The notes: a model not told the origin generated them from the sequence alone. A DNA stretch of 64,000 nt from Thermoprotei archaeon (GCA_003650675.1 QMRH01000001.1:1-64000); one strand, 5' to 3'. Counted from the first letter of the stretch, positions 22,261 to 60,890 are shown. Translations and numbers: made by a program.

Positions 22261-25014
22261 TTAACTTATGGGTTCAGCTTCAAGAAAAACGTGTGAAGTC
22301 CCCCCTTTCTTCTCCACTTTGTAGACTAAATCAGCTGCATCCTCTAGTTCGCGTTCATGTGTGACTATTATAAGCTGAGGGATTATTCCCCCCTTCTCTT
22401 TAAAGAATTTTTTAAGTAAACCCACAAGATAGCGTCTACGTTCCTCATCTAAATGTGTTGTAGGCTCATCCAGCAGCAGGAAACCCACTTTATCCCCTGC
22501 CAACACCCTTGCAATGGCCAAACGGAGCGCTAACGCCAATCCTACCCTTTCACCACCACTTATCATGTCAGCTGTCTCGTCTCCACGTGGAGTAACGAGA
22601 GTTATTTCGTAGTTATCATCCAAACGTATATCAACGAAGTTAACGTAGTTCAAATGTTGGAAAATTTGTTTTGTGTGAAGCTCTAATAGTGGACGAGCTC
22701 GCCTTCTTACAATTTTTTGAAGTCCTTCTTTGCCATAAAGTTTACGTATTTTGCGGAGAAATCCTATGAAATCATTTAGACGAGCATATTCTTCCTCGAT
22801 TCTCCCAATCTCGTTTAGCTTCCTTTCAAGGTCGAGGATCTCGTTCTTAAGGTTTAGGATATCTGCTTCGAGGGAAGAAGTCTTTGAAAGTAATCTTTTT
22901 TCCAGATCCCTTAACCTGGCTTCTTCTTTCTTGAGCTGGAGGTGAGTATTTTCGTCGTAGCCGAGGTCTTTGAGGTCTTTTTGTATAGCCTGCATAGTCT
23001 CCTGTAACAGCCTTTTCTCGTCCTCAAGTTTCGCAATTATATCCTTCAAAAAGGGTATTTTTGCTACAATGCTTCGTAGTTCACTAACTTCTTTCTCCAG
23101 CTCACGGTAATAATCTATCCTTTTCTCGACATCTTTTACTTCCTCCGCATGTTCCTGTTCAATAAGGCTTATTTTAGCCTTAACGTTCGAAAGCTCCCTG
23201 GAGAGGTTGCGAAGATTAGTGTTTATCTCCTCTTCATTCACCTTTTCAAGGTATTCTTTAGCCAGGAGAAATCGTCGGTAATTTCGCTCTATTTCCTCAA
23301 GGCTTTCAAGCTTCTTTTGGATGCTCTTCTTCTCCTCTTCAAGAACCTCTAATTCCAACCTAATCTTCTCTCTTTCACCTTTGAGATTATCGAATCTAAG
23401 ATTATATTCCTTGTATTTTTCTGACAATAACATTAGTTTCCCTTTAAAGACGGACTCTAGCTTTTCAAGAGTGTTTCTAAGAAACTCGTGACGCCTTATC
23501 TTATCTTTTTCTTCTTCCTCCAAGTTTTGAAGTAGTTTTTCGAGCTCTCTTTTTGTATTAAACAGGTCTTTAAGTAATTCATCTCTATGCTCGGGTGTAA
23601 GTTTACTATGGCAGAGCGGACACTGGCTTGATGTAGAAATCTCCTTAATGTTGGCGGCGATCTCCTCTAGGCTATAATTGATCTTCAGTTTCTTATTTTT
23701 TAAAAACTCTATATCATGTTCCATTCTTTCCATATCCTTGCTTAAATGGTCCATTATCTTTTCCAAGTTGCTTGAAAAGCTGGTGATCGTGTATTCAGAT
23801 CCTCTGAGCGGTGATACAAATTCTTCAGGTACTGTATTTATTAACATATGTAAGGTGTCTTCGAACCGTTTCTGTATGGTTTCAATGGATGCTTGGAGTT
23901 CCATAATTTGTCTTTGAATCTCCTTAAGTCTGCCAAGGAGGTTTGAATGTTGAGATAAGATCTCCTTAAATTCCTTCTCTAAACTCTTTAGGCGATTGTA
24001 TTTTTCTTCAATATCTCTATTGTTGTCGATGAAACGTCTATGTTCCTCAATTTCCTGTCTCTTTTTCTTTAATTCTTCAACTCTCTCCGAGAAAATATTC
24101 TCTCTTTCTTTAAGGGCTAAATATTCTTTAAGAACATCCATTATGGCTAGCTTTGGCTCTAAAATAGCTAGTTTTTTAGCGGCTTCTAAGGCCTTTGAAT
24201 ACTCCTCGTTAAAGTTATCCAAACGGGAATTAATATCGGTGATCCTCTTCCTAATGTTCTCCAGACGTGATTTATATTCCACGAACTTTGTTGCTTTAGC
24301 ATCATATTCGCTTAGCGCTTTTTCTAGTGCTCGATATTTATTCTGAACATCGTTTAACTCTCGCCTAGCCTTTTCCAACTCCTTTCGTTTACCGTTCAGC
24401 AGGGAGTTTTTCTCGACTAAAAGCTTTATTATCTCGTCTTTGGCCTTTAACCTTCCATAAAGCTCATGTGATTTATTTTCAAATGGTTTAATCACTTCCC
24501 GCATTTCTTGAAAAGCTTTTTCAAGATCCTCTATACCCATTAGGCGGGCTATAATTTGCTTCCTTTCAGCAGGTCTAGCAGTAACCAGTTTCTCTATTTC
24601 ACCTTGCCTTATGTAGATAGAATTTAGGAAAAGAGTCTTATCCATCCCTATAATCCGCTCTAAGAGCTTATTTGCTTCAGAATCAGTATACGCCTTCAAC
24701 GTATTATTCTCGTAGACTCTTACATCACTTTTTACGCTTCTTCCACTTTTCATCACTCTCCTCTCAACCTTATATAGCCTACCCTTGGCTTCAAATTCGA
24801 GAACGACAGTAGCCTTTCCAGCTCCTCTTTTAACAATATTTTCTAGTGTTCCTCCTCTGCTATGTTCCTTATATAATGCAAAGCTTATGGCATCTAGTAT
24901 ACTTGTTTTCCCTGCACCATTAGGTCCCACTATAGCGATTATTCCTTCCGGGAATTGTAGCTTCGTATTATCGTGTGATACAAAGTTTTCTAGAATAATT
25001 TTTCTCAATATCAT
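22261..25014 (-). CDS. rad50: DNA double-strand break repair ATPase Rad50
   Basis: About 917 residues from ATG 25014, which overlaps the mre11 stop (ATGA); a TTG at 25020 is the alternative. GPNGAGKTS (Walker A) near residue 33, long coiled coils, a zinc-hook CPLC near residue 463, signature MISGGERVGLALALRLAIARVL and Walker B FLLLDEPTTHLDEE are intact. With Mre11 it tethers and processes DNA ends; in archaea it hands over to HerA-NurA for 5' resection. Last gene of the operon. Confidence 0.97.
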   Translation of the reverse strand: MILRKIILENFVSHDNTKLQFPEGIIAIVGPNGAGKTSILDAISFALYKEHSRGGTLENIVKRGAGKATVVLEFEAKGRLYKVERRVMKSGRSVKSDVRVYENNTLKAYTDSEANKLLERIIGMDKTLFLNSIYIRQGEIEKLVTARPAERKQIIARLMGIEDLEKAFQEMREVIKPFENKSHELYGRLKAKDEIIKLLVEKNSLLNGKRKELEKARRELNDVQNKYRALEKALSEYDAKATKFVEYKSRLENIRKRITDINSRLDNFNEEYSKALEAAKKLAILEPKLAIMDVLKEYLALKERENIFSERVEELKKKRQEIEEHRRFIDNNRDIEEKYNRLKSLEKEFKEILSQHSNLLGRLKEIQRQIMELQASIETIQKRFEDTLHMLINTVPEEFVSPLRGSEYTITSFSSNLEKIMDHLSKDMERMEHDIEFLKNKKLKINYSLEEIAANIKEISTSSQCPLCHSKLTPEHRDELLKDLFNTKRELEKLLQNLEEEEKDKIRRHEFLRNTLEKLESVFKGKLMLLSEKYKEYNLRFDNLKGEREKIRLELEVLEEEKKSIQKKLESLEEIERNYRRFLLAKEYLEKVNEEEINTNLRNLSRELSNVKAKISLIEQEHAEEVKDVEKRIDYYRELEKEVSELRSIVAKIPFLKDIIAKLEDEKRLLQETMQAIQKDLKDLGYDENTHLQLKKEEARLRDLEKRLLSKTSSLEADILNLKNEILDLERKLNEIGRIEEEYARLNDFIGFLRKIRKLYGKEGLQKIVRRRARPLLELHTKQIFQHLNYVNFVDIRLDDNYEITLVTPRGDETADMISGGERVGLALALRLAIARVLAGDKVGFLLLDEPTTHLDEERRRYLVGLLKKFFKEKGGIIPQLIIVTHERELEDAADLVYKVEKKGGTSHVFLEAEPIS

Positions 25015-26156
25015 TTCCAAGCACCTTTTTCATAGAACTTACGTGCCTGGTTTACGGCGCCTTCAATATCGCCTTGGGATAATAGATTGAAAAGCTCGTA
25101 GGCAAAACTTGCTTTGGATTCATCCTTTAGAAACTCCCTCAAAAGGTCTTTGATACTTATTTTATCCATTTCTAAGGTTAATAGATCGGGTGTAAGTGGC
25201 TTCTCCTCTAGTTGCCATCTAACGCCAAGTGCGTAAGGCTCGATGTACTTGGAGATAAGTTTCTGTAGAAAGACCCTGTTAATTGACGAACTTGTCTTTA
25301 TTTCAAGATGAATTACAGGTTTCTTATTGAATCTTATGGAACGTATTTTCTCCATTATCTTTGCAAATTCTTTATCAAAGTTCTCTGAACTCTTTACCTT
25401 GAATTCAAGGTGGGGTCTAATGTTCTCTAGGTTGATTTCATGTACATAGGGTTGGTCGCCGCTTAAATCCACAATATAGAAGCCTTTGCCGTTTTTTCTG
25501 TATTCATTATACTCGTCTTTACTCCAAACTTCGGTTGATCCAGGATATGCTAGAATTCCTCTACCATAATTGGTTTTTAAACGTTTATGAATATGTCCCA
25601 TAGCATAGTAGTCAAAATTTGTGGGTAGGTCGCTTAAATCAAGTTCGTAGTCAAATGGGAGGTATTGTTGAACCGCTTGATGGAGGACAAGTATCCTTTT
25701 ACTGTAGTTTTTAGAATTCGAGGCTATTGCCTCTATCTTTGACATAAGAATCTTTTTGAAAGCACGTGGGGTGTATTCGACCCCTCCTATGAAAACTTTT
25801 TTGCCGAAAACATCAAAGGGCTTGCTCGACCTTAATACTGTTACACCAAGTTGCTCAAATAATGCATGTGGAGGGAGCCCCTTTCTTCTAGGCTGATCAT
25901 GGCTCCCGGGAATCGCATAAATTTTAATACCTTTTTCATCCAGCTTCTTAACTGATTTTAAAACCGCTAATAGAGCTTCGGTGGATGGTCTGGAAGATTC
26001 GAAAAGATCGCCGGAGTGTACCACGAAATCTACTTTTTCTTTAATTATTTTGTCTATTGCTTCGTTAAATGCATCGTAAAAATCCTGCTCTCTTTCACGT
26101 AGATTATATTGTCGAAAACCCAGATGGGTATCAGATATATGGGCAAAAAACACCAT
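25011..26156 (-). CDS. mre11: DNA repair nuclease Mre11
   Basis: 381 residues. The phosphoesterase motifs are in order: HISDTHLGFRQ, HSGDLFESSRPS, PGSHDQPRR, VLHQAV and MGHIHKR. The usual GNHD reads GSHD, an Asn-to-Ser change at the position that normally ligands metal, which is notable. The C-terminal 150 residues contain the Rad50-binding region. The start follows the herA stop without gap, with GGAGTGG upstream. Confidence 0.94.
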   Translation of the reverse strand: MVFFAHISDTHLGFRQYNLREREQDFYDAFNEAIDKIIKEKVDFVVHSGDLFESSRPSTEALLAVLKSVKKLDEKGIKIYAIPGSHDQPRRKGLPPHALFEQLGVTVLRSSKPFDVFGKKVFIGGVEYTPRAFKKILMSKIEAIASNSKNYSKRILVLHQAVQQYLPFDYELDLSDLPTNFDYYAMGHIHKRLKTNYGRGILAYPGSTEVWSKDEYNEYRKNGKGFYIVDLSGDQPYVHEINLENIRPHLEFKVKSSENFDKEFAKIMEKIRSIRFNKKPVIHLEIKTSSSINRVFLQKLISKYIEPYALGVRWQLEEKPLTPDLLTLEMDKISIKDLLREFLKDESKASFAYELFNLLSQGDIEGAVNQARKFYEKGAWK

Positions 26157-27650
26157 CTACCACTCCTCCGTTATGTCATTATAAGCTTTCTCTAGCTCCA
26201 GCTCTTCCTCGCGTATCCTCTTCCATTCAGAAACTATATCGATATCGCCTCCAGAAAGCTTGCCCTCAAACTTATTTATTTTAACTATAGCCGGTATTTT
26301 AACCATCAAGCCTAGTACGACTGCTTCACCGATATTGAGGGAAGGAAGTTGCTCCAAAAGATCTTCACTTAATGTTTCGCTAGCTTGCTGTACGAACCTT
26401 TGGTCAGATGGTTCAACGAGCCTCAAAACTATCATGTTATTGGCTTGTGATAAGGTGTCAGGATCCAATGCTTTAGGCCGTTGACTGACCAGACATAGTC
26501 CCAAACCGAATTTCCTACCTTCACGCGCTATACGGCTTATCCAGTATTTTGAGAGAGTGGATCTGCCCTTGGGCGCCAGTATATGAGCCTCTTCAAGCAC
26601 AACAAACACTGGGAAGGCAAGCCCTTCTCCCGTACTTTTATAGCTTTTACGGGAGTACAGTAATGTTCTTAGATAGTGGCTTACAATGACATCAGAGGCA
26701 TCCTCATCAAGAGCACCCAAGTCGACTACGTTTACATATCCAAGCTTTATCTGGTTTAATACTGAGGGAGCCTGGAGATCTATAATAAAACCATATTTAT
26801 CTTGCATGGCCTCTAGCTTGTTCTGCACCGAGATCACTACATTTTTTGCGTCCCTGGATTTACTCTCCTCAGCTACATCATCAAGGGCTTTAACTAGGAG
26901 TTTAAAGAACATCTCTGTATCCTCCGGATGCCTTTTCAGGTGATTATAAACTTTCTTCAAAGCTTTTCTAAAGTAATATTCCTGCCTATGGGCTTTGTAA
27001 TCGATATTTAAAAGTTTCAGTAGCTCGCTTAAATGCAGGTGTAACGGATTTACTCTTGGGGAAATCGGGTTCACGTCACCGTTTCTAAACCTAGCGTCGA
27101 CATATTCTGAATGCATGTCAAATATGAGTACGGCTCCGCCAAGCCCTAGAATACCATCGCTTATAACTGCTACAGTATTAGATTTTCCAGCACCAGTTAT
27201 TGCCAGTATGGCCAGGTGTCTAGAAACCATTCTATTTATATCAATATATACAGGAACTTCGGGGTTTGACGCAAGAACACCTATACATACACCTTTCTCT
27301 TTACAGGAGAAAACATCCTTTAAAATTGAACTATCAGCTTCTCTTACCTCAGTTGCAGGTGGAGGAGGGACACGGGGTATCTCGAGGTTTTTGACATCAC
27401 CAAGTATTTTTATTATACCCTTTATATAGTAGTCTCTTTCACCTTCGAGATCTTTTATCCGTTCTACTACAGTGGGATCATGGATATCCTCGCTTAAAGC
27501 TACACTGCCCATAACCACCCTTCTAACAATACCCAGCACCTTTTTTCCATCATATTCCAAGATAACGTATTGCCCCAGTCTCGGAGGCTTTTTCGATATG
27601 AAAATTACATGTGTTGGTGATGCTTCACCAACCACGTATCCAAGTTTCAT
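26157..27650 (-). CDS. herA: Bipolar DNA helicase/translocase HerA
   Basis: 497 residues. The N-terminal HAS barrel (MKLGYVVGEASPTHVIFIS) is followed by the FtsK/HerA ATPase: AITGAGKSNTVAVI (Walker A), FDMHSEYVD, FPVFVVLEEAHILAP (Walker B), WISRIAREGRKFGLGLCLVSQRP (sensor and arginine region). It forms a hexamer that works with NurA. It overlaps nurA by 4 nt and abuts mre11, so the four genes are one operon. Confidence 0.96.
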   Translation of the reverse strand: MKLGYVVGEASPTHVIFISKKPPRLGQYVILEYDGKKVLGIVRRVVMGSVALSEDIHDPTVVERIKDLEGERDYYIKGIIKILGDVKNLEIPRVPPPPATEVREADSSILKDVFSCKEKGVCIGVLASNPEVPVYIDINRMVSRHLAILAITGAGKSNTVAVISDGILGLGGAVLIFDMHSEYVDARFRNGDVNPISPRVNPLHLHLSELLKLLNIDYKAHRQEYYFRKALKKVYNHLKRHPEDTEMFFKLLVKALDDVAEESKSRDAKNVVISVQNKLEAMQDKYGFIIDLQAPSVLNQIKLGYVNVVDLGALDEDASDVIVSHYLRTLLYSRKSYKSTGEGLAFPVFVVLEEAHILAPKGRSTLSKYWISRIAREGRKFGLGLCLVSQRPKALDPDTLSQANNMIVLRLVEPSDQRFVQQASETLSEDLLEQLPSLNIGEAVVLGLMVKIPAIVKINKFEGKLSGGDIDIVSEWKRIREEELELEKAYNDITEEW

Positions 27651-28723
27651 AGCAACACCTCCCTCCCTCTCTCTTCATGATAGAGACTTAAAATACGGTA
27701 GATTCTTAACATATCTTCCCCACGGATTTCAACCTCCTGATGGGCTCTTCGAAGGGGATATGGGTATCCCCTTACCGTGAAAACTGAAAGGTCATCAAGT
27801 AATTTTTTAATATCCTCCATACTCCTTTCCCCAAAAACCTCTATCCTAAAAACCTGTTCTCTCGGTTCAAGCCGAGCATAAAACACCGTGAACATAAGAT
27901 CCTCACTAAAATCCAAATAATTTTTTAATGCTTTCGGTAAAGATAACTTAACCACATTAGGCTTGGAGAAACCTGTATTCTGAGTAAGCTTATCGAAAAT
28001 AACTAGGTCGGGCTTTAAGCTATACCTGAAGTACCGTCTACTTGTGGATGTTTTGGAGATCGCCACAAGTTTTCCACCATATCGTCTAAAAAGTTTAATT
28101 AAGACATTCAGCAACTCCACCTTCTCGAGGGTAAGCATCGAGTTTAGAAGAACATCTGTATCAAGATCCCTGCCGATAATATCCGTTGCCTTTTCCTCCG
28201 CGAGGATGTCAAGCTTAGGCTCATTAATAGCGTTAATGTATTTTTCCATGAAATCAGGATCCAGATTAATAAACATTTTTATATCATTTTCAATACCCCT
28301 AAGCTTAACAAGAAAACTTATAAAAGATCCATCTATTAAAGAAAGATCCAGTTCGCCCTCCTCTATGAGATTCAAAGTAGTTTTAGCCTCCAAAATACCC
28401 ATTTGGGCTCTAACCCTCTCTAGCACGTTCTCTGATGGAGGTAGAAGACCGACTTTCCCGGTTTTCACCTCTTTTTCAAAACCATTTCTCGAATAAAGAA
28501 TAGAAACCGCGTTTATAGCATACAACATAAATCCTCTAAACTCCATGAAATTGAGGCTACCGTCTGTGGCTGAAACCCTAAACTCCCTTTCAAAAGAAGA
28601 AGGGTTATATTTAATCCACCGTTCTATAGCATCTTTTTTATTAACTCTTAGGCTTTGTGCATTCTCGAGTATCTCTTCTCTATGCTGTAGAGCATACTCA
28701 ATGAGTTCTGGAATCAATTCCAC
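27647..28723 (-). CDS. nurA: 5'-3' nuclease NurA
   Basis: SATDGSLNFMEFRGF holds the catalytic Asp of the NurA fold; further conserved features are VDISDGS-like LIDGSFISF and the C-terminal YPYPLRRAHQEVEI. The frame is open to an ATG at 28864, but the first 43 residues are rich in Cys and Trp and look non-coding. I therefore favour GTG 28723 (GGGGAT upstream) or TTG 28717, giving about 358 residues. It overlaps herA by 4 nt. Confidence 0.9.
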   Translation of the reverse strand: MELIPELIEYALQHREEILENAQSLRVNKKDAIERWIKYNPSSFEREFRVSATDGSLNFMEFRGFMLYAINAVSILYSRNGFEKEVKTGKVGLLPPSENVLERVRAQMGILEAKTTLNLIEEGELDLSLIDGSFISFLVKLRGIENDIKMFINLDPDFMEKYINAINEPKLDILAEEKATDIIGRDLDTDVLLNSMLTLEKVELLNVLIKLFRRYGGKLVAISKTSTSRRYFRYSLKPDLVIFDKLTQNTGFSKPNVVKLSLPKALKNYLDFSEDLMFTVFYARLEPREQVFRIEVFGERSMEDIKKLLDDLSVFTVRGYPYPLRRAHQEVEIRGEDMLRIYRILSLYHEERGREVLL

Positions 28724-28922
28724 ATCCCCAACATTCTTATCTATTATAATTTTATTAAGTAAAGCTCTTAAAATAACGAATCGATAAAAGGAGCATGAAA
28801 GTAATTTAATTAACCTCCACTTACATGAACACCAACTATCTACAGGTGATATCCATCTAAACACTTGAAAATCAGTTCCTTTTCAAGCTTCTAATAAATT
28901 AACAAATTATTTTACTGCCAAA

Positions 28923-55000: not shown

Positions 55001-57850
55001 GTGATATTGGTGAAGGCTATTGAGCTTCTTTCACCGGTTGTAAAGAAACTCATAGAGGAAAGAGGATTCTCTAGCCTGACTCCTCCCCAAGAAAAGGCTA
55101 TCCCCCTGATACTTTCCGGTTATAATGTTTTAATTGTAGCGCCCACTGGTACTGGAAAAACGGAGGCAGCTATCATACCTCTACTGGATTTAATGTTAAA
55201 GGAAAAATCTGTTAAAGGAGTGAAACTCATATACGTGACCCCTCTCCGTGCACTTAATCGAGATATATTGGAGAGAATAAAATGGTGGTTTCTTAAACTC
55301 GACTTCAAGGTCGCTGTTAGACATGGAGATACACCCGTGTCCGAACGTAGACTGCACGTTATATCCCTTCCCGACGTTTTAGTAACTACACCTGAAAGCC
55401 TTCAACTGCTCTTTTTAGGTAGAAGACTTAGGGAAATAATTAGAAATGTTCGTTGGGTCATCATTGACGAGGTTCATGAAATAGCTTCAAGTAAACGCGG
55501 TAGCCAATTGTCCATACTACTAGAAAAACTTAAGAGACATGTTCAGGGACGAGAAATACAGATAATAGGTTTATCTGCAACTGTAGGTAATCCAGAGGAA
55601 GTAGCGAGATTCCTGGCAGGCTCCAGCAAACCCTGCAAAGTAGTATATGTACCTGTCGCCAAGAGGATATCGATTAACGTTAAATGCCCGCGTCCAATTC
55701 CCCGGGACTATGCTTTAGCCAGCAAATTAGGAGATTCCCCTGAGATCTTAGCGCGAATTAGAGTCATAAGAGAACTTTTAGAGAACAATAGAGCGGTAAT
55801 AATTTTTACTAATACTCGACCCACCGCCGAAATGCTTGCCAGTCGATTTAAAATACTTGATTTAAGGGCGCCTATCGATGTTCACCATGGAAGTCTTTCT
55901 GCGGATAGGCGGCAACGTGCCGAAATAGGGTTAAAGAGCGGTGGCATAAGAGGCTTGGTTTCAACCTCTTCGATGGAGTTGGGTATCGATGTGGGACATG
56001 TAGATCTCGTTATACAGTATAATTCACCGCGGCAAGTTTCCAAGCTTGTCCAAAGGATCGGGAGAAGTGGTCATAGACTTGGAGAAGTCAGTAGGGGTGT
56101 TGTGTTAGCACTGGATTCCAACGATGTTTTAGAAGCCTTAGTGTTAAAGAAGTTTCTGAGAGAAGAAAGGATAGAGCCTATTGAAATACCTTCTAAACCA
56201 TTCGATGTGCTAGCACACGAAATAGTCGGACTTTTCATTTCCGAGAGAAGAAGATGGCTTGATATACATGAGCTATATCTTTTCTTTAGGAAGGCATACC
56301 CCTTCCGAGATTTGAAAATTGAAGAATTTAACAAATTAATCGATTTCCTAGATCAAGTTAAAATTTTGAGAAGGGTGGGGGACAAGATCGTCCTAAAAGA
56401 TAGAAGATATGCCTATAAGTACTTTTACGGTACCCTTTCAATGATACCTGAACTGAAACAGTACATTGTCATAGATTCGAAGGAAGGAATCCCTGTAGGG
56501 ATACTCGATGATACCTTCGTCTCCTACTATTGTGAACTTGGAGTAAAATTCATTATGGGCGGAAGACCATGGCGCATCGTCGAGGTTCTCGAAGAAACAA
56601 TAAAAGTTGAGTCTGAAGATGACTATAAAGGGGCTATCCCTAGCTGGGTAGGTGAGGAGATTCCTGTACCCTTTGAAGTTGCGCAGGAGGTTGGTAAAGT
56701 ACGTGGTTGCGTCGAAGACCTGGCCGCAAAGGGATGGTCTCTAAAAGATATTGTAAGACATCTTGTTGACGTCAATGAATGGAAGGGGGATGACGTTAAA
56801 GAAGCAGTGAAAGACGTATATAAGATAGCCCGCTCAGGGCTGAAAGTCCCATCAAATAAAGACATTATAATAGAGGGTGAAAAGGGATTGGTGATTGTAC
56901 ATATGCATTTCGGGACACGTGTGAACAGAACGTTTGCAAGGTATCTTGCCTACTCTCTTTCAAGAATTTTAGGTTCAGCTATAGTAACGGTAGATAAACC
57001 TTATGCGATTGCATTAAGATCCAATTTTCTGGATGTAAAGGATGTTGAAGAATGTTTAAAAAAGGTTTCTTCACATGACTTCAAGAGAAACGTTATAGGC
57101 GGAATCTCGGAAAGCAGGTTATTTAAATGGCGGCTTGCCCAGGTAGCTAGAAGAATGGGAATAGTCGATCCGGATACCCGTCTTTCATCAGATATAATGG
57201 ACAAGCTAGTTTCTATGCTTAAGGGGACCCCTGCCTACGAGGAGGCCTTAAAAGAGGTATTGAATCGGGACCTGGATTTAGCCAGAGCCATTGAAGTGGT
57301 TAAAAAAATAGAGAAAGGAGAAATAGTGATACACGTTCGTGGCGGGTTCTCCTCCCTAGCCGAACAAATATTATATTACGTTGGACGTAGCGGCGAGGTG
57401 TTCAAGCCGGATAAACGCGAGGTTCTCGAAAACCTGATTTTTAAAGCCCGAGTTCTCTCCGAAAGGATAACGGTTGGCTGTTTATCATGCGGTTACGTGG
57501 AAGAAAAAATTCTTTATGAAGTGGGTGACAATTATCATTGTCCAAAATGTGGCTCCAATGAACTAGTTTTTTCTACAAAACCGGTTGAAGCCCTTGAAAA
57601 TGAACTAGAATATTACATGAGAGGAGAAAAGTCTAAACGAACCATAAGGTTGAAAACTATAGCTGCTCTCTATGAAAAATATGGCCTGAAAACACTGGCA
57701 GGTGTAGTTCTAGGTTTACCTTTAACTGAACTTAGAAGGCTACTGAAAGCTGAATTTGAAACACTTGATGAATTTATGAAAGAACTTAGAAAAACGTATA
57801 GACGTGGCTTACTTAGACGCTTCACTCAGCGTCGGCTCCAAGCATTTTAA
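55001..57850 (+). CDS. lhr: Lhr-type SF2 helicase
   Basis: 949 residues. VAPTGTGKTEA at 46-56, TPLRALNRD, TPESL, DEVHE at 156-160, GLSATVGNP, MELGIDVGHVDLVIQYNSP and QRIGRSGHR are the SF2 motifs of the Lhr/aLhr group; the winged helix and DUF4145-like Lhr core follow. A C-terminal zinc motif CLSCGY..CPKCGS (about 827-849) resembles the aLhr type with four cysteines. TTTATACAC at about 54968 places transcription start near the GTG, suggesting a leaderless message. Confidence 0.93.
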   Translation: MILVKAIELLSPVVKKLIEERGFSSLTPPQEKAIPLILSGYNVLIVAPTGTGKTEAAIIPLLDLMLKEKSVKGVKLIYVTPLRALNRDILERIKWWFLKLDFKVAVRHGDTPVSERRLHVISLPDVLVTTPESLQLLFLGRRLREIIRNVRWVIIDEVHEIASSKRGSQLSILLEKLKRHVQGREIQIIGLSATVGNPEEVARFLAGSSKPCKVVYVPVAKRISINVKCPRPIPRDYALASKLGDSPEILARIRVIRELLENNRAVIIFTNTRPTAEMLASRFKILDLRAPIDVHHGSLSADRRQRAEIGLKSGGIRGLVSTSSMELGIDVGHVDLVIQYNSPRQVSKLVQRIGRSGHRLGEVSRGVVLALDSNDVLEALVLKKFLREERIEPIEIPSKPFDVLAHEIVGLFISERRRWLDIHELYLFFRKAYPFRDLKIEEFNKLIDFLDQVKILRRVGDKIVLKDRRYAYKYFYGTLSMIPELKQYIVIDSKEGIPVGILDDTFVSYYCELGVKFIMGGRPWRIVEVLEETIKVESEDDYKGAIPSWVGEEIPVPFEVAQEVGKVRGCVEDLAAKGWSLKDIVRHLVDVNEWKGDDVKEAVKDVYKIARSGLKVPSNKDIIIEGEKGLVIVHMHFGTRVNRTFARYLAYSLSRILGSAIVTVDKPYAIALRSNFLDVKDVEECLKKVSSHDFKRNVIGGISESRLFKWRLAQVARRMGIVDPDTRLSSDIMDKLVSMLKGTPAYEEALKEVLNRDLDLARAIEVVKKIEKGEIVIHVRGGFSSLAEQILYYVGRSGEVFKPDKREVLENLIFKARVLSERITVGCLSCGYVEEKILYEVGDNYHCPKCGSNELVFSTKPVEALENELEYYMRGEKSKRTIRLKTIAALYEKYGLKTLAGVVLGLPLTELRRLLKAEFETLDEFMKELRKTYRRGLLRRFTQRRLQAF

Positions 57851-58373
57851 CAAGTTTTTCCAGGTCGACCTCCATATATGTACGCCATCCTAGTGAAATT
57901 AGAAACTCTTCATCTTCGATCAGATAGCCTGCTTTTATGAAGCGATCTAAAGTACTTTGTATCCTCCACTCCGGCACCTTGTCCTTGAGAAAATTTACTA
58001 CTGTTTGTCTTTGAACCTTTCCTCCATGAGCAAACACAAGAACCAGCGTCGATGCCAAAACAGCTAGATCGTCTATGCGCCATCCAACGCTACGTAGATC
58101 CTCGATTTTAAGCTCCTCTGTTAACACTATTCCTATCCATGCCTGAGATAGTTTTTCTCTTTCATCTAGGTTGACTTCGCTACCGTCCTCAAGAACAGCC
58201 TTTACACGAAGCCCAAGTTTTTCCAGTTCACTATTAAGCTTTTTTAACACCTCGGGATAATCTATTCCGAGAAGCTTACGTAGCTCCGATCCTCTGATAC
58301 CTGGCCGGCTTCTACCCCTCACAAGGAGTATTCTCAATGCCCGTTTAACCCTTTGATCAACCTTCTTTACCAA
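57822..58373 (-). CDS. scpB: Segregation and condensation protein B
   Basis: 183 residues from TTG 58373. Two winged-helix units: RGSELRKLLGIDYPEVLKKLNSELEKLG and VNFLKDKVPEWRIQSTLDRFIKAGYL. This is the ScpB layout (kite protein), dimerising on the ScpA kleisin. It overlaps scpA by 17 nt and converges on lhr with a 29-nt overlap. Confidence 0.82.
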   Translation of the reverse strand: MVKKVDQRVKRALRILLVRGRSRPGIRGSELRKLLGIDYPEVLKKLNSELEKLGLRVKAVLEDGSEVNLDEREKLSQAWIGIVLTEELKIEDLRSVGWRIDDLAVLASTLVLVFAHGGKVQRQTVVNFLKDKVPEWRIQSTLDRFIKAGYLIEDEEFLISLGWRTYMEVDLEKLVKMLGADAE

Positions 58374-59151
58374 CTCTTTTCACCCATTCCAGATAATTTA
58401 TTGAGACTGCTAGAGAAAACCTGTTTGAACGTTTACTCCCGGTTTTTTCCTCTTTGACAATGAATATTTTTTCTTTCAGTGGATCTATCTCGATTGCTAG
58501 GTTCCCCCTGCTTATAAGATGAGATAGTAGAAGCGCGTTTTCCACCGTTTTTCGATAATCGTTTTCATCAATTATGGCATCCCAGTACTCTATTCGACTA
58601 TTTTTCTCGAGTTGGGAAGCTATTTTTAAAGCATATTCGGAAAGTTTTTTCTCAAAGTCTTTTTCTCCTATTATTCCTAGATATTTAAGGAATTTTTCGT
58701 TAACTAAACCCAAAGTGTCTTCTTCACCGACTTTAGGTTTCTTTGGAAGCCTTCTAAATGCTTCAATATACTTTAAACCTCTTTTTATTTCCCTTAATGT
58801 AAGGTGGTCTCTATAGACTTGAGGGGTCCATGCAGCTAAGAATATTGATGCAATCTTTTTTAGGGGGGCTTTCCGTAATGTCATGAGGGCGGCAAGCGAA
58901 CTCAATCCAAGTAACTGCGACTCCATTTTCAGCCATTCTTCCTGCTCTACAAGGAGCATTACTATGTTTTCGATGGCTTCTGCGTCAAGATGTAGTATTT
59001 TTTCACCGTATTTTTCTAGGAAGAACCTGAGATCATCCAATAAAGATGATATGTCTACAGTGAAGGGATCCTTCCGTTCTTCTATAATCTGCTTTATCGT
59101 CCTGATGCGTGCTTTAAGCTGTTCCTCTATGTTTCTCGGCACACTTGTCAT
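58357..59151 (-). CDS. scpA: Segregation and condensation protein A (kleisin)
   Basis: 264 residues. DPFTVDISSLLDDLRFFLEKYG near 30 is the N-terminal kleisin signature (ScpA 'PF..dl..L..Li'), then a middle helical region and a C-terminal winged helix (RGNLAIEIDPLKEKIFIVKE). It starts 4 nt into the end of the SMC-like gene. It should bridge the SMC heads and bind ScpB. Confidence 0.82.
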   Translation of the reverse strand: MTSVPRNIEEQLKARIRTIKQIIEERKDPFTVDISSLLDDLRFFLEKYGEKILHLDAEAIENIVMLLVEQEEWLKMESQLLGLSSLAALMTLRKAPLKKIASIFLAAWTPQVYRDHLTLREIKRGLKYIEAFRRLPKKPKVGEEDTLGLVNEKFLKYLGIIGEKDFEKKLSEYALKIASQLEKNSRIEYWDAIIDENDYRKTVENALLLSHLISRGNLAIEIDPLKEKIFIVKEEKTGSKRSNRFSLAVSINYLEWVKRVGKEG

Positions 59152-60890
59152 CGAAGCGTTCCCACCTTAGATACACCCTTAACATTTTGGACCACAACTA
59201 CATTGGCTGTCTTCACCAGATTAATCAATGTTCCAGGTGTTATTACCAAGTATTGAACATCGGGGTGTTGTTCCGAGATTCGGAAAATTAGGTTGAATAC
59301 GGCTTCTCTATTTTTAGGATCCATGTGTACGTCGAATTCGTCTACAGCTCTGAAAGGCGATCTTATGTATTGTTGTAGAGCCAGGAGAAAGCACATTATA
59401 GCTGTTGTCCTTTCCCCTCCGCTTTGAGTATAAGGGTCGAGGACGGTGGGGGCGGATCCCCGGAATCCAACTGTTATCTCTATTCCAGCCTGTTCTATGT
59501 CATCAAGGTTTATGAGACGAACATCCCCCACGGCTTCAACATGGGATAAATGGCTTGAAAATAGTCTCCTTACGTCTGATATCAATTTTATCAGTTTGCT
59601 CTTCCAGATGTTTTTCCTATACTCTAGCTCTTTAAGAACCTTCTCCCTGTTCCTTGCAACTATTAAGGCTTTCTCTCTAAGCCTGTTTAAATCACCTAGA
59701 TATCTTTTATATAACTCCTCTACCTCCCTGCTTATTCCCCTGTAGCCAGCGAGCTCCAACTCTATTTTCTTTAACTCTTCTTCCACCTCCTCTATCTTTC
59801 GTTGAGATTCGACTCTCTCTCCAAGGGTTAACGCCTGTTTAAGCGCAACCTCTAACCGAAAACTTAGTTCCCTGAGTTCCGTCTCTATGCTAGCTATTTT
59901 TTCGTTAAGTATTTTTAAAACGTATTTTGATAACTTTAATTCAGAATAGTCATTTAAATAACTATTCCAAGTATCCTTATATTTGTTCAATAGAGACAAA
60001 AAGTCTTCAAGGGAAACCTTATTGATGAAACCATCTATTAAATCTTTTTCAATGTCTTTTAAAGCCGCTTTTAGATAGTCGATAGAATCTCTTAAGCCGA
60101 CTATCTTCCTTTCGGTCTTTTTCTTCTCTTGAAGTAACGCATTTATCTCTTCTTTTAGCAGGTTAGTCTGATGTTCTAGATCCCTAACTTTAATCCATGC
60201 GGCTTCAAGCCTCAGTCTCCCACGAATCTCTTCTAGCTCCAGTTTACGAAGGTATTTTTCGTGTTCCTGTTTAATGTTTTCGAACTTTTCTTCGGCTTTT
60301 TTAAGAAGTTCTTTGATTTTTTCTTCTTCGCTGAGTGTATGTTCCAGCCTTTGCATGGATTTGACTATAGCGTCTCTATATCCTTTCAACCCGACTGCAT
60401 CTTCTATTAAACGTAGTTTCTCTTGTGGAGAAAGGTAAACAAACTCCTCTATCATGTTTTGATGCATTATTATGAACATATTGTCTGGATTGAGTCCTAT
60501 ACGGTTAAGTAGACGATTGATCTCATATTTTGTTGCAAGAGTATTGTTAAGTTCATGCCAGTATTTTCCATCGCTACGAAGATACCTTGTTAAATAGATT
60601 TCATTGTACCTCCACCTAGGCAATGGTCTTATACGGTTTCTGGGAGAGTTATCCAGGACAACAGTCACTCTGGCTATCTCCTCTCCCCTTCGTATTAAGT
60701 CGCTCAATCTTCTTCCTCTCTCAGTATAAGTTTGTCCAAGAGCTACAGCGATTGCAAGCAATATGGACGATTTTCCTGCACCGTTAGGTCCTGTAATTAT
60801 ATTGAGACCCGGCTGAAAGCCTATTCGAGCGTAACGATATGACATAAAGTTCTCTATTATTACTTCTTTGACTAAAGGTTGAACCTTCAC
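59148..60890 (-). CDS. Miniature, apparently hinge-less SMC-like ATPase
   Basis: 580 residues from GTG, half the usual SMC length. N-head: VIIENFMSYRYARIGFQPG and GPNGAGKS at 34-41. Coiled coil at about 170-290 and 320-455 flanks only about 30 residues (FINKVSLEDFLSLLNKYKD), too short for an SMC hinge. C-head: QSGGERTT at 489-496 and Walker B RAVDEFDVHMDPKNR, with DEFD at 517-520, which resembles Smc6 rather than the LLDEID of bacterial SMC. It is coupled to scpA and scpB, so it probably forms their SMC partner. Confidence 0.85.
   Translation of the reverse strand: MKVQPLVKEVIIENFMSYRYARIGFQPGLNIITGPNGAGKSSILLAIAVALGQTYTERGRRLSDLIRRGEEIARVTVVLDNSPRNRIRPLPRWRYNEIYLTRYLRSDGKYWHELNNTLATKYEINRLLNRIGLNPDNMFIIMHQNMIEEFVYLSPQEKLRLIEDAVGLKGYRDAIVKSMQRLEHTLSEEEKIKELLKKAEEKFENIKQEHEKYLRKLELEEIRGRLRLEAAWIKVRDLEHQTNLLKEEINALLQEKKKTERKIVGLRDSIDYLKAALKDIEKDLIDGFINKVSLEDFLSLLNKYKDTWNSYLNDYSELKLSKYVLKILNEKIASIETELRELSFRLEVALKQALTLGERVESQRKIEEVEEELKKIELELAGYRGISREVEELYKRYLGDLNRLREKALIVARNREKVLKELEYRKNIWKSKLIKLISDVRRLFSSHLSHVEAVGDVRLINLDDIEQAGIEITVGFRGSAPTVLDPYTQSGGERTTAIMCFLLALQQYIRSPFRAVDEFDVHMDPKNREAVFNLIFRISEQHPDVQYLVITPGTLINLVKTANVVVVQNVKGVSKVGTLR

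Follow-up and report, generated by a model that had tools for sequence, protein, structure and literature searches.

Most models of kleisin-SMC complexes presume a ring closed by the SMC hinge, and the locus described here raises the question of what kind of machine is encoded by an operon whose SMC protein has none. The window analysed is a stretch of 64,000 nt (GCA_003650675.1, QMRH01000001.1:1-64000) from an archaeal MAG of 2.07 Mb in 149 contigs, which is 96.5% complete and 6.45% contaminated. Between 57822 and 60890 the minus strand carries three open reading frames arranged head-to-tail. The first (59148–60890, GTG start) encodes a hinge-less SMC ATPase of 580 aa with an SMC5/6-related head, and shares 4 nt with the following frame of a Nse4-like kleisin (58357–59151, ATG start, 264 aa). 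The latter shares 17 nt with the frame of a KITE protein of the Nse1/Nse3(MAGE)-like, tandem winged-helix type (57822–58373, TTG start, 183 aa). The end of the KITE gene overlaps by 29 nt with the 3′ end of a convergent gene for an Lhr-type helicase (55001–57850, plus strand); this is a conserved neighbour and is not claimed as a subunit. The presence of a hinge-less SMC with two partner genes is confirmed, and the original prediction, which took the operon for a minimal condensin of an SMC coupled to ScpA and ScpB, had placed it and sized its SMC correctly. The closest relatives of the SMC (58–62% identity) are in Guaymas Basin MAGs, in records labelled Thermoprotei.

The SMC protein carries the full set of ATPase motifs, all encoded on the minus strand. 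These are the Walker A motif GPNGAGKS (residues 34–41, 60768–60791), the Q-loop glutamine Q144 (60459–60461, invariant in 42/42), a Smc5-like signature motif QSGGER (residues 489–494, 59409–59426) and a Smc6-like Walker B and D-loop VDEFDVHMDP (residues 516–525, 59316–59345). Comparison with 78 hinge-less relatives shows that both half-heads are complete, as had been proposed. Walker A is GPNG[ASC]GKS and the signature (Q/H/L)SGGE(R) among these proteins, while Walker B is DEFDVH(M/L)D, with its listed variants, in essentially all of them, and the motifs remain intact in relatives down to 35% identity. The C-lobe combines traits of Smc5 (QSGGER and MDP.NR) with one of Smc6 (DEFDV.MD). The hinge-less SMC and SMC5/6 also have in common the sequence S-P-(F)-R preceding Walker B, and (I/L)TP replaces the usual switch region, as in both SMC5 and SMC6.

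Pfam matched SMC_N in the 580-aa protein and no SMC_hinge, which is likewise not among the families matched by at least four of 42 relatives. The monomer was modelled with AlphaFold2, a check that had been suggested with the original prediction, using a 42-row alignment (mean pLDDT 90.5). The outgoing coiled-coil helix (residues 169–289, 60024–60386, minus strand) is unbroken in the model, and at the site usually occupied by the hinge domain there is a turn of four residues (290–293, 60012–60023, minus strand). From this turn the chain returns as a coiled coil (residues 294–449, 59544–60011, minus strand) made of two helices (294–356 and 389–449) on either side of a joint-like break at 357–388. 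The helix-turn-helix tip thus bears out the absence of a hinge, and no hinge fold is hidden in residues 280–330; the estimate of about 30 residues between the coils was too large. The pLDDT is about 78–93 around the tip. The arm is about 120 residues long, or roughly 18 nm, and its tip varies in length across the family and is the least conserved stretch (residues 281–300, mean top-residue frequency 0.21 compared with about 0.8 in the motifs). Zinc-hook dimerisation is ruled out, since no CxxC hook was found in the coil in any of the 78 members. These are 555–692 aa in length, and the open frames in a wider scan of Thermoproteota reach no more than 762 aa among the matches listed for the hinge-less SMC; hinge SMCs in that scan are mostly 1,170–1,300 aa. 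The layout is retained by 80 relatives at 35–62% identity, and is therefore not due to chance.

The heads of this family are related to SMC5/6. When the family profile was compared with the PDB, chains of Smc5 and Smc6 scored best (208–237 bits), with prokaryotic SMC at 171–199 at best and Smc1–4 at 168 at best. A tree was calculated from concatenated half-heads (324 sites) of 28 hinge-less SMCs, eight canonical archaeal SMCs, human SMC1–6, yeast Smc5, B. subtilis SMC and two Rad50-type proteins, with yeast Smc6 joined in a second run. The heads used for human SMC5 and SMC6 match the PDB essentially letter for letter, and those of human SMC1–4 and B. subtilis SMC are presumed correct. The split that unites the hinge-less SMCs with SMC5 and SMC6, leaving out SMC1–4, bacterial SMC and canonical archaeal SMC, has SH-aLRT/UFBoot supports of 99.7/100 (98.2/100 with yeast Smc6), in a tree with long eukaryotic branches and Rad50 as a distant outgroup. 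AU tests, whose constrained trees were fast searches under a simpler model and hence somewhat biased towards rejection, reject grouping the hinge-less SMCs with all canonical SMC without SMC5/6 (p 0.024) or just with the canonical SMCs of archaea (p 0.0013), a single eukaryotic SMC1–6 clade (p 0.0006), and a position of the hinge-less SMCs outside all SMC (p 0.036). The data allow the hinge-less set to be strictly monophyletic (AU p 0.196; supports 86/90 and 96.2/97), while the order in which SMC5, SMC6 and the hinge-less clade of archaea branch is unstable across the trees. The Smc6-like Walker B, DEFD, was thus the right lead, and the head-domain tree that had been suggested places the protein with SMC5/6 at 98–100% support. 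The hinge-less SMCs form one clade with SMC5/6 apart from canonical archaeal SMC, which is how archaeal SMC5/6-related proteins are defined in PMC9389158.

The two partner proteins appear to have relatives in the same complex. The C-terminal domain of the kleisin (residues 187–258, 58378–58593, minus strand) matches Pfam Nse4_C above the cut-off (5.6e-9; 36.6 bits, cut-off 26), and 18 of 51 kleisin relatives match this family at E up to 0.01. In the PDB the family profile matches EID3 (3.9e-5) and Nse4 (6e-4) best, both far better than ScpA (0.03–0.1). The link to Nse4 is carried by this one domain; the N-terminal region, which includes a DPFxVD(I/V) motif (approximate limits 58921–59139, minus strand), is slightly more like ScpA than Nse4, with a weak similarity to the ScpA N-terminus (E 0.027). 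There is no Pfam match to ScpA (PF02616) in the kleisin or anywhere in the source genome. By sequence the kleisin appears closest to Nse4/EID3, and the name ScpA is not supported.

For the KITE it is the fold that carries the relationship. The model (pLDDT 90, pTM 0.81) gave a top five in Foldseek that are all chains of Nse1/3/MAGE complexes (2e-6 to 1e-3). The leading full-length matches in VIA-align are Nse1/3 (Z 13.8–10.7, the first being 13.8, 12.3, 12.1 and 11.6), while Wadjet JetB (Z 9.4, 5.1 Å) and ScpB (Z 8.9, 5.2 Å) rank among single winged-helix matches. The signal in the sequence is faint and points in the same direction, with profile matches to Nse1 (E 0.021) and MAGE (E 0.058), and Pfam matches to MAGE in three and to SMC_Nse1 in one of 52 relatives. 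The KITE has no match to a RING, its 183 aa ending with the second winged helix, and none to the ScpB family (PF04079), for which the source genome gives only a match below the cut-off elsewhere. This is a weak ScpB-like winged helix on another contig (C6:47862–48083, E 7e-4), unrelated to the KITE of the operon. The modelled KITE seems closest to Nse1/Nse3/MAGE, and the name ScpB is not supported. The idea of a distinct minimal SMC-kleisin-KITE complex is accordingly supported, while the proposed coupling to ScpA and ScpB and the label of condensin are not.

The SMC, kleisin and KITE are one conserved unit and no oddity of this genome. Among 80 TACK loci in other genomes a kleisin frame is found nearby in 75 and a KITE frame in 70–71, each count including one locus (L071) with a single frame joined across a masked run. 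A kleisin-KITE fusion at that locus is ruled out, as the junction is the masked run of N. Most cases of a missing kleisin or KITE coincide with contig ends; an exception is L010, where the kleisin is on another contig of the same genome (G359). Two loci of Calditenuaceae (L061 and L062) have SMC and kleisin with no KITE detected in the interval from the kleisin to the gene that follows, and their relative L064 has a KITE. Start-stop overlaps are common among the operon loci and gene order is kept across TACK. At a locus of Hecatellales (L038, 6130–8883) about 2.7 kb of unrelated genes split the SMC from the kleisin, which is still paired with the KITE. Named hosts include Thermofilales, Methanomethylicia, Bathyarchaeota, Nitrososphaeria, Geothermarchaeota, Aigarchaeota/Calditenuaceae, Wolframiiraptor, Methanodesulfokora and Brockarchaeota, and two records outside these are labelled Thermoplasmata (L085) and Hadesarchaea (L018). 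In 61 relatives of the source genome the kleisin is found in 13/13 genomes known to have the hinge-less SMC (including G359), and is otherwise nearly absent, the exceptions being two genomes not scanned for SMC (G399 and G401) and one lacking SMC (G327), which has a fragment of the kleisin. A viral collection gave only distant ATPase matches, none from the hinge-less family; phage proteins gave only short matches to the SMC head, and plasmids no match to the kleisin.

Over 398 Thermoproteota genomes the hinge-less SMC is present in about 157 and a hinge SMC in 168; 77 genomes have both, 80 the hinge-less form only, 91 the hinge form only and 150 neither, with the hinge-less SMC counted at E below 1e-60 and a divergent hinge below threshold escaping the count. 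Within the source's own order about half of the searched genomes have neither, and the function must therefore be dispensable or replaceable there. The source genome has a hinge-less SMC, Rad50 and an arcadin-4-like protein. An SMC_hinge profile that found its target in 12 of 14 control genomes has no match anywhere in it, and no full-length SMC was found elsewhere in the genome when one was looked for.

This bears on one alternative, that the protein is a degraded paralogue of a full-length SMC. At about half the usual length it could be taken for one, but the source genome has no full-length SMC from which it might derive, the ATPase motifs are kept throughout the family and the absence of the hinge is a family trait and not a local lesion. 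Such an origin is refuted in practice and scarcely credible. A minimal bacterial-type Smc-ScpAB condensin that has lost its SMC hinge would have the same kinds of gene, and could call upon the weak ScpA resemblance of the kleisin N-terminus and on the hinge-less protein being the sole SMC in the source genome. Bacterial and archaeal Smc-ScpA(-ScpB) does share the logic of SMC, kleisin and KITE with a homodimeric SMC, but has a full-length hinge SMC and the ScpA and ScpB families, unlike this operon. The heads go with SMC5/6 and not with canonical SMC in both tree and AU tests, the kleisin has a match to Nse4_C and none to an ScpA family, in a genome that has no ScpA, the KITE has an Nse1/3-like fold, and the hinge-less SMC stands beside a hinge SMC in 77 of the 398 genomes. 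The condensin reading is thus disfavoured and unlikely.

RecN is of similar size, hinge-less and has short arms, and so the SMC might instead dimerise through its arm tips as a tethering DNA-repair ATPase, rather than form a clamp closed by a kleisin. The break at 357–388 and the slightly less certain tip of the model are compatible with such a dimer, but a tip that is poorly conserved and variable in length is unlike a conserved dimer interface, and the conserved kleisin and KITE favour a kleisin-closed complex; we regard the tip dimer as unlikely. An anti-plasmid or anti-phage defence system of the Wadjet or Lamassu type is suggested by JetB as the next-best full-length fold match of the KITE (Z 9.4), and by a match of the SMC to LmuB in PADLOC (2e-26). 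Against this, neither the kleisin nor the KITE has a match among PADLOC families, there is no conserved nuclease neighbour and no JetD gene was seen (the commonest neighbour is the Lhr helicase), and the broad single-copy spread with stable synteny resembles that of a core-genome locus. A role in defence is very improbable.

The operon therefore probably encodes an archaeal Smc5/6-like SMC-kleisin-KITE complex of a pre-duplication type, acting as an ATP-gated DNA clamp. From the three genes, their order, conservation and relationships, the missing hinge and the predicted folds we infer the stoichiometry, clamp and cellular role of this complex as follows. It would contain one kind each of SMC, Nse4-like kleisin and Nse1/Nse3-like KITE, with the SMC and the KITE both predicted to be homodimers. 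ATP would bring two SMC heads together, with the N-terminal domain of the kleisin gripping the neck of one SMC and its C-terminal winged helix capping the head of the other. The KITE pair, located on the middle of the kleisin, would close over DNA resting on the heads, so that the clamp would sit between heads and kleisin with no requirement for a hinge. Since the arms end in a bare turn the SMC pair would be held by the heads, kleisin and KITE, perhaps helped by weak contacts between the arm tips. The SMC subunits may be joined through the two partners alone, as the original prediction proposed. In yeast Smc5/6 the DNA lies in a tunnel made by the engaged heads, the necks, Nse4 and Nse3, secured from above by the KITE, and the clamp consists of the heads plus Nse1-3-4 (PMC9191643). 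Subcomplexes of Smc5 and Smc6 engineered to lack the hinge still associate in the presence of ATP (PMC8327961). The archaeal complex would probably deal with DNA topology and with intermediates of recombination or replication; both its relatives and the genes beside it (Lhr helicase and topoisomerase IB) suggest a role in repair or topology.

The closest relative of all three subunits is the eukaryotic Smc5/6 core (Smc5, Smc6, Nse4, Nse1 and Nse3), with which the operon shares the heads (by profile and tree), Nse4_C in the kleisin and, on the model, a KITE folded into tandem winged helices as in Nse1/3. The eukaryotic complex has two SMC and two KITE paralogues where the operon has one of each, its SMCs are of about 1,100 aa with a hinge, whereas the archaeal SMC has none and short arms, its Nse1 carries a RING for which the archaeal KITE is too short, and it additionally has the SUMO ligase Nse2 and the loader Nse5/6. 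Because it lacks a hinge and a RING, and a second SMC paralogue (the source genome has one hinge-less SMC gene), the archaeal complex is not a member of eukaryotic Smc5/6. Other archaeal SMC-like ATPases with shortened arms are the ASRP/coalescin/Sph proteins. The comparison with coalescin drawn in the original prediction is a loose one, given that ASRPs (coalescin) possess a zinc hook (PMC9389158), unlike all 78 members here, and that the SMC scores 63 bits against the NCBIfam ASRP model, with a cut-off of 300.

SMC5/6-related SMCs of archaea have been described before (Yoshinaga and Inagaki 2021, cited in PMC9389158) and are very probably the same family, as they too group with SMC5/6 apart from canonical archaeal SMC; that description, as cited, makes no mention of a missing hinge, Nse4-like kleisin or Nse1/3-like KITE. 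Nor does the searchable literature report hinge loss in this archaeal family or such partners, although a preprint on the prokaryotic roots of SMC (van Hooff 2024, 10.1101/2024.01.07.573240, cited in PMC12188315) may hold part of this. Hinge-less SMCs of marine Actinobacteria were presented as new in 2025 (PMC12153180). As described there, they also comprise head and coiled coil with no hinge, but are set apart as bacterial, metagenomic and with no kleisin named. What may be new here is the missing hinge together with the dedicated Nse4-like and Nse1/3-like partners.

We put forward tentatively the stronger proposal that this is a complete SMC-kleisin-KITE machine, standard in a large share of archaea and a direct relative of the ancestor of eukaryotic Smc5/6, with no SMC-SMC dimerisation domain. 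If so, the DNA clamp would be made purely of heads, kleisin and KITE. SMC function would then require neither a hinge nor a tripartite ring that is closed, and the three kinds of core subunit in Smc5/6 would all be older than eukaryotes. The complex bears on the question of the prokaryotic ancestor of Smc5/6, and may show its ancestral state and how few parts are needed. As a natural hinge-free relative of Smc5/6 with three subunits in one operon, from thermophilic and other TACK archaea, it offers a minimal Smc5/6 that could be reconstituted, and a direct test of the need for a hinge in clamping, translocation and loop extrusion. It has been reported that smc, scpA and scpB are all missing from Crenarchaeota, and argued that the Smc complexes of archaea do without a KITE (PMC7055376). 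In about half of the carriers (80 of 157) no hinge SMC could be detected, which suggests that an SMC complex is present in many archaea taken to be 'SMC-less'.

The genes around the operon are partly conserved. The convergent Lhr-type helicase is the commonest neighbour, following the operon in 17 of the 33 non-redundant loci whose sequence extends far enough. In ten Methanomethylicia loci (for example L023, 4187–5860, minus strand; Topoisom_I 6.9e-70) a divergent gene for a eukaryote-type topoisomerase IB begins just upstream of the hinge-less SMC, at a distance of about 180 bp. A conserved protein of about 227–244 aa, with no match in Pfam or NCBIfam, is encoded near the operon in 36 loci (for example L012, 5230–5961, minus strand) and absent from this window; it is possibly a further functional partner. 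Another contig of the source genome (C7; locus L111, 499–3015) encodes an SMC-like protein of 838 aa with a zinc hook, for which the best model is arcadin-4 (2.3e-99, below the cut-off) rather than Rad50. The second SMC-superfamily gene in the window is that of Rad50 (22261–25020, minus strand; best NCBIfam model Rad50_Sulf, 8e-110), and the genes packed directly upstream of it (25011–28864) are probably a cluster of the Mre11-HerA-NurA type.
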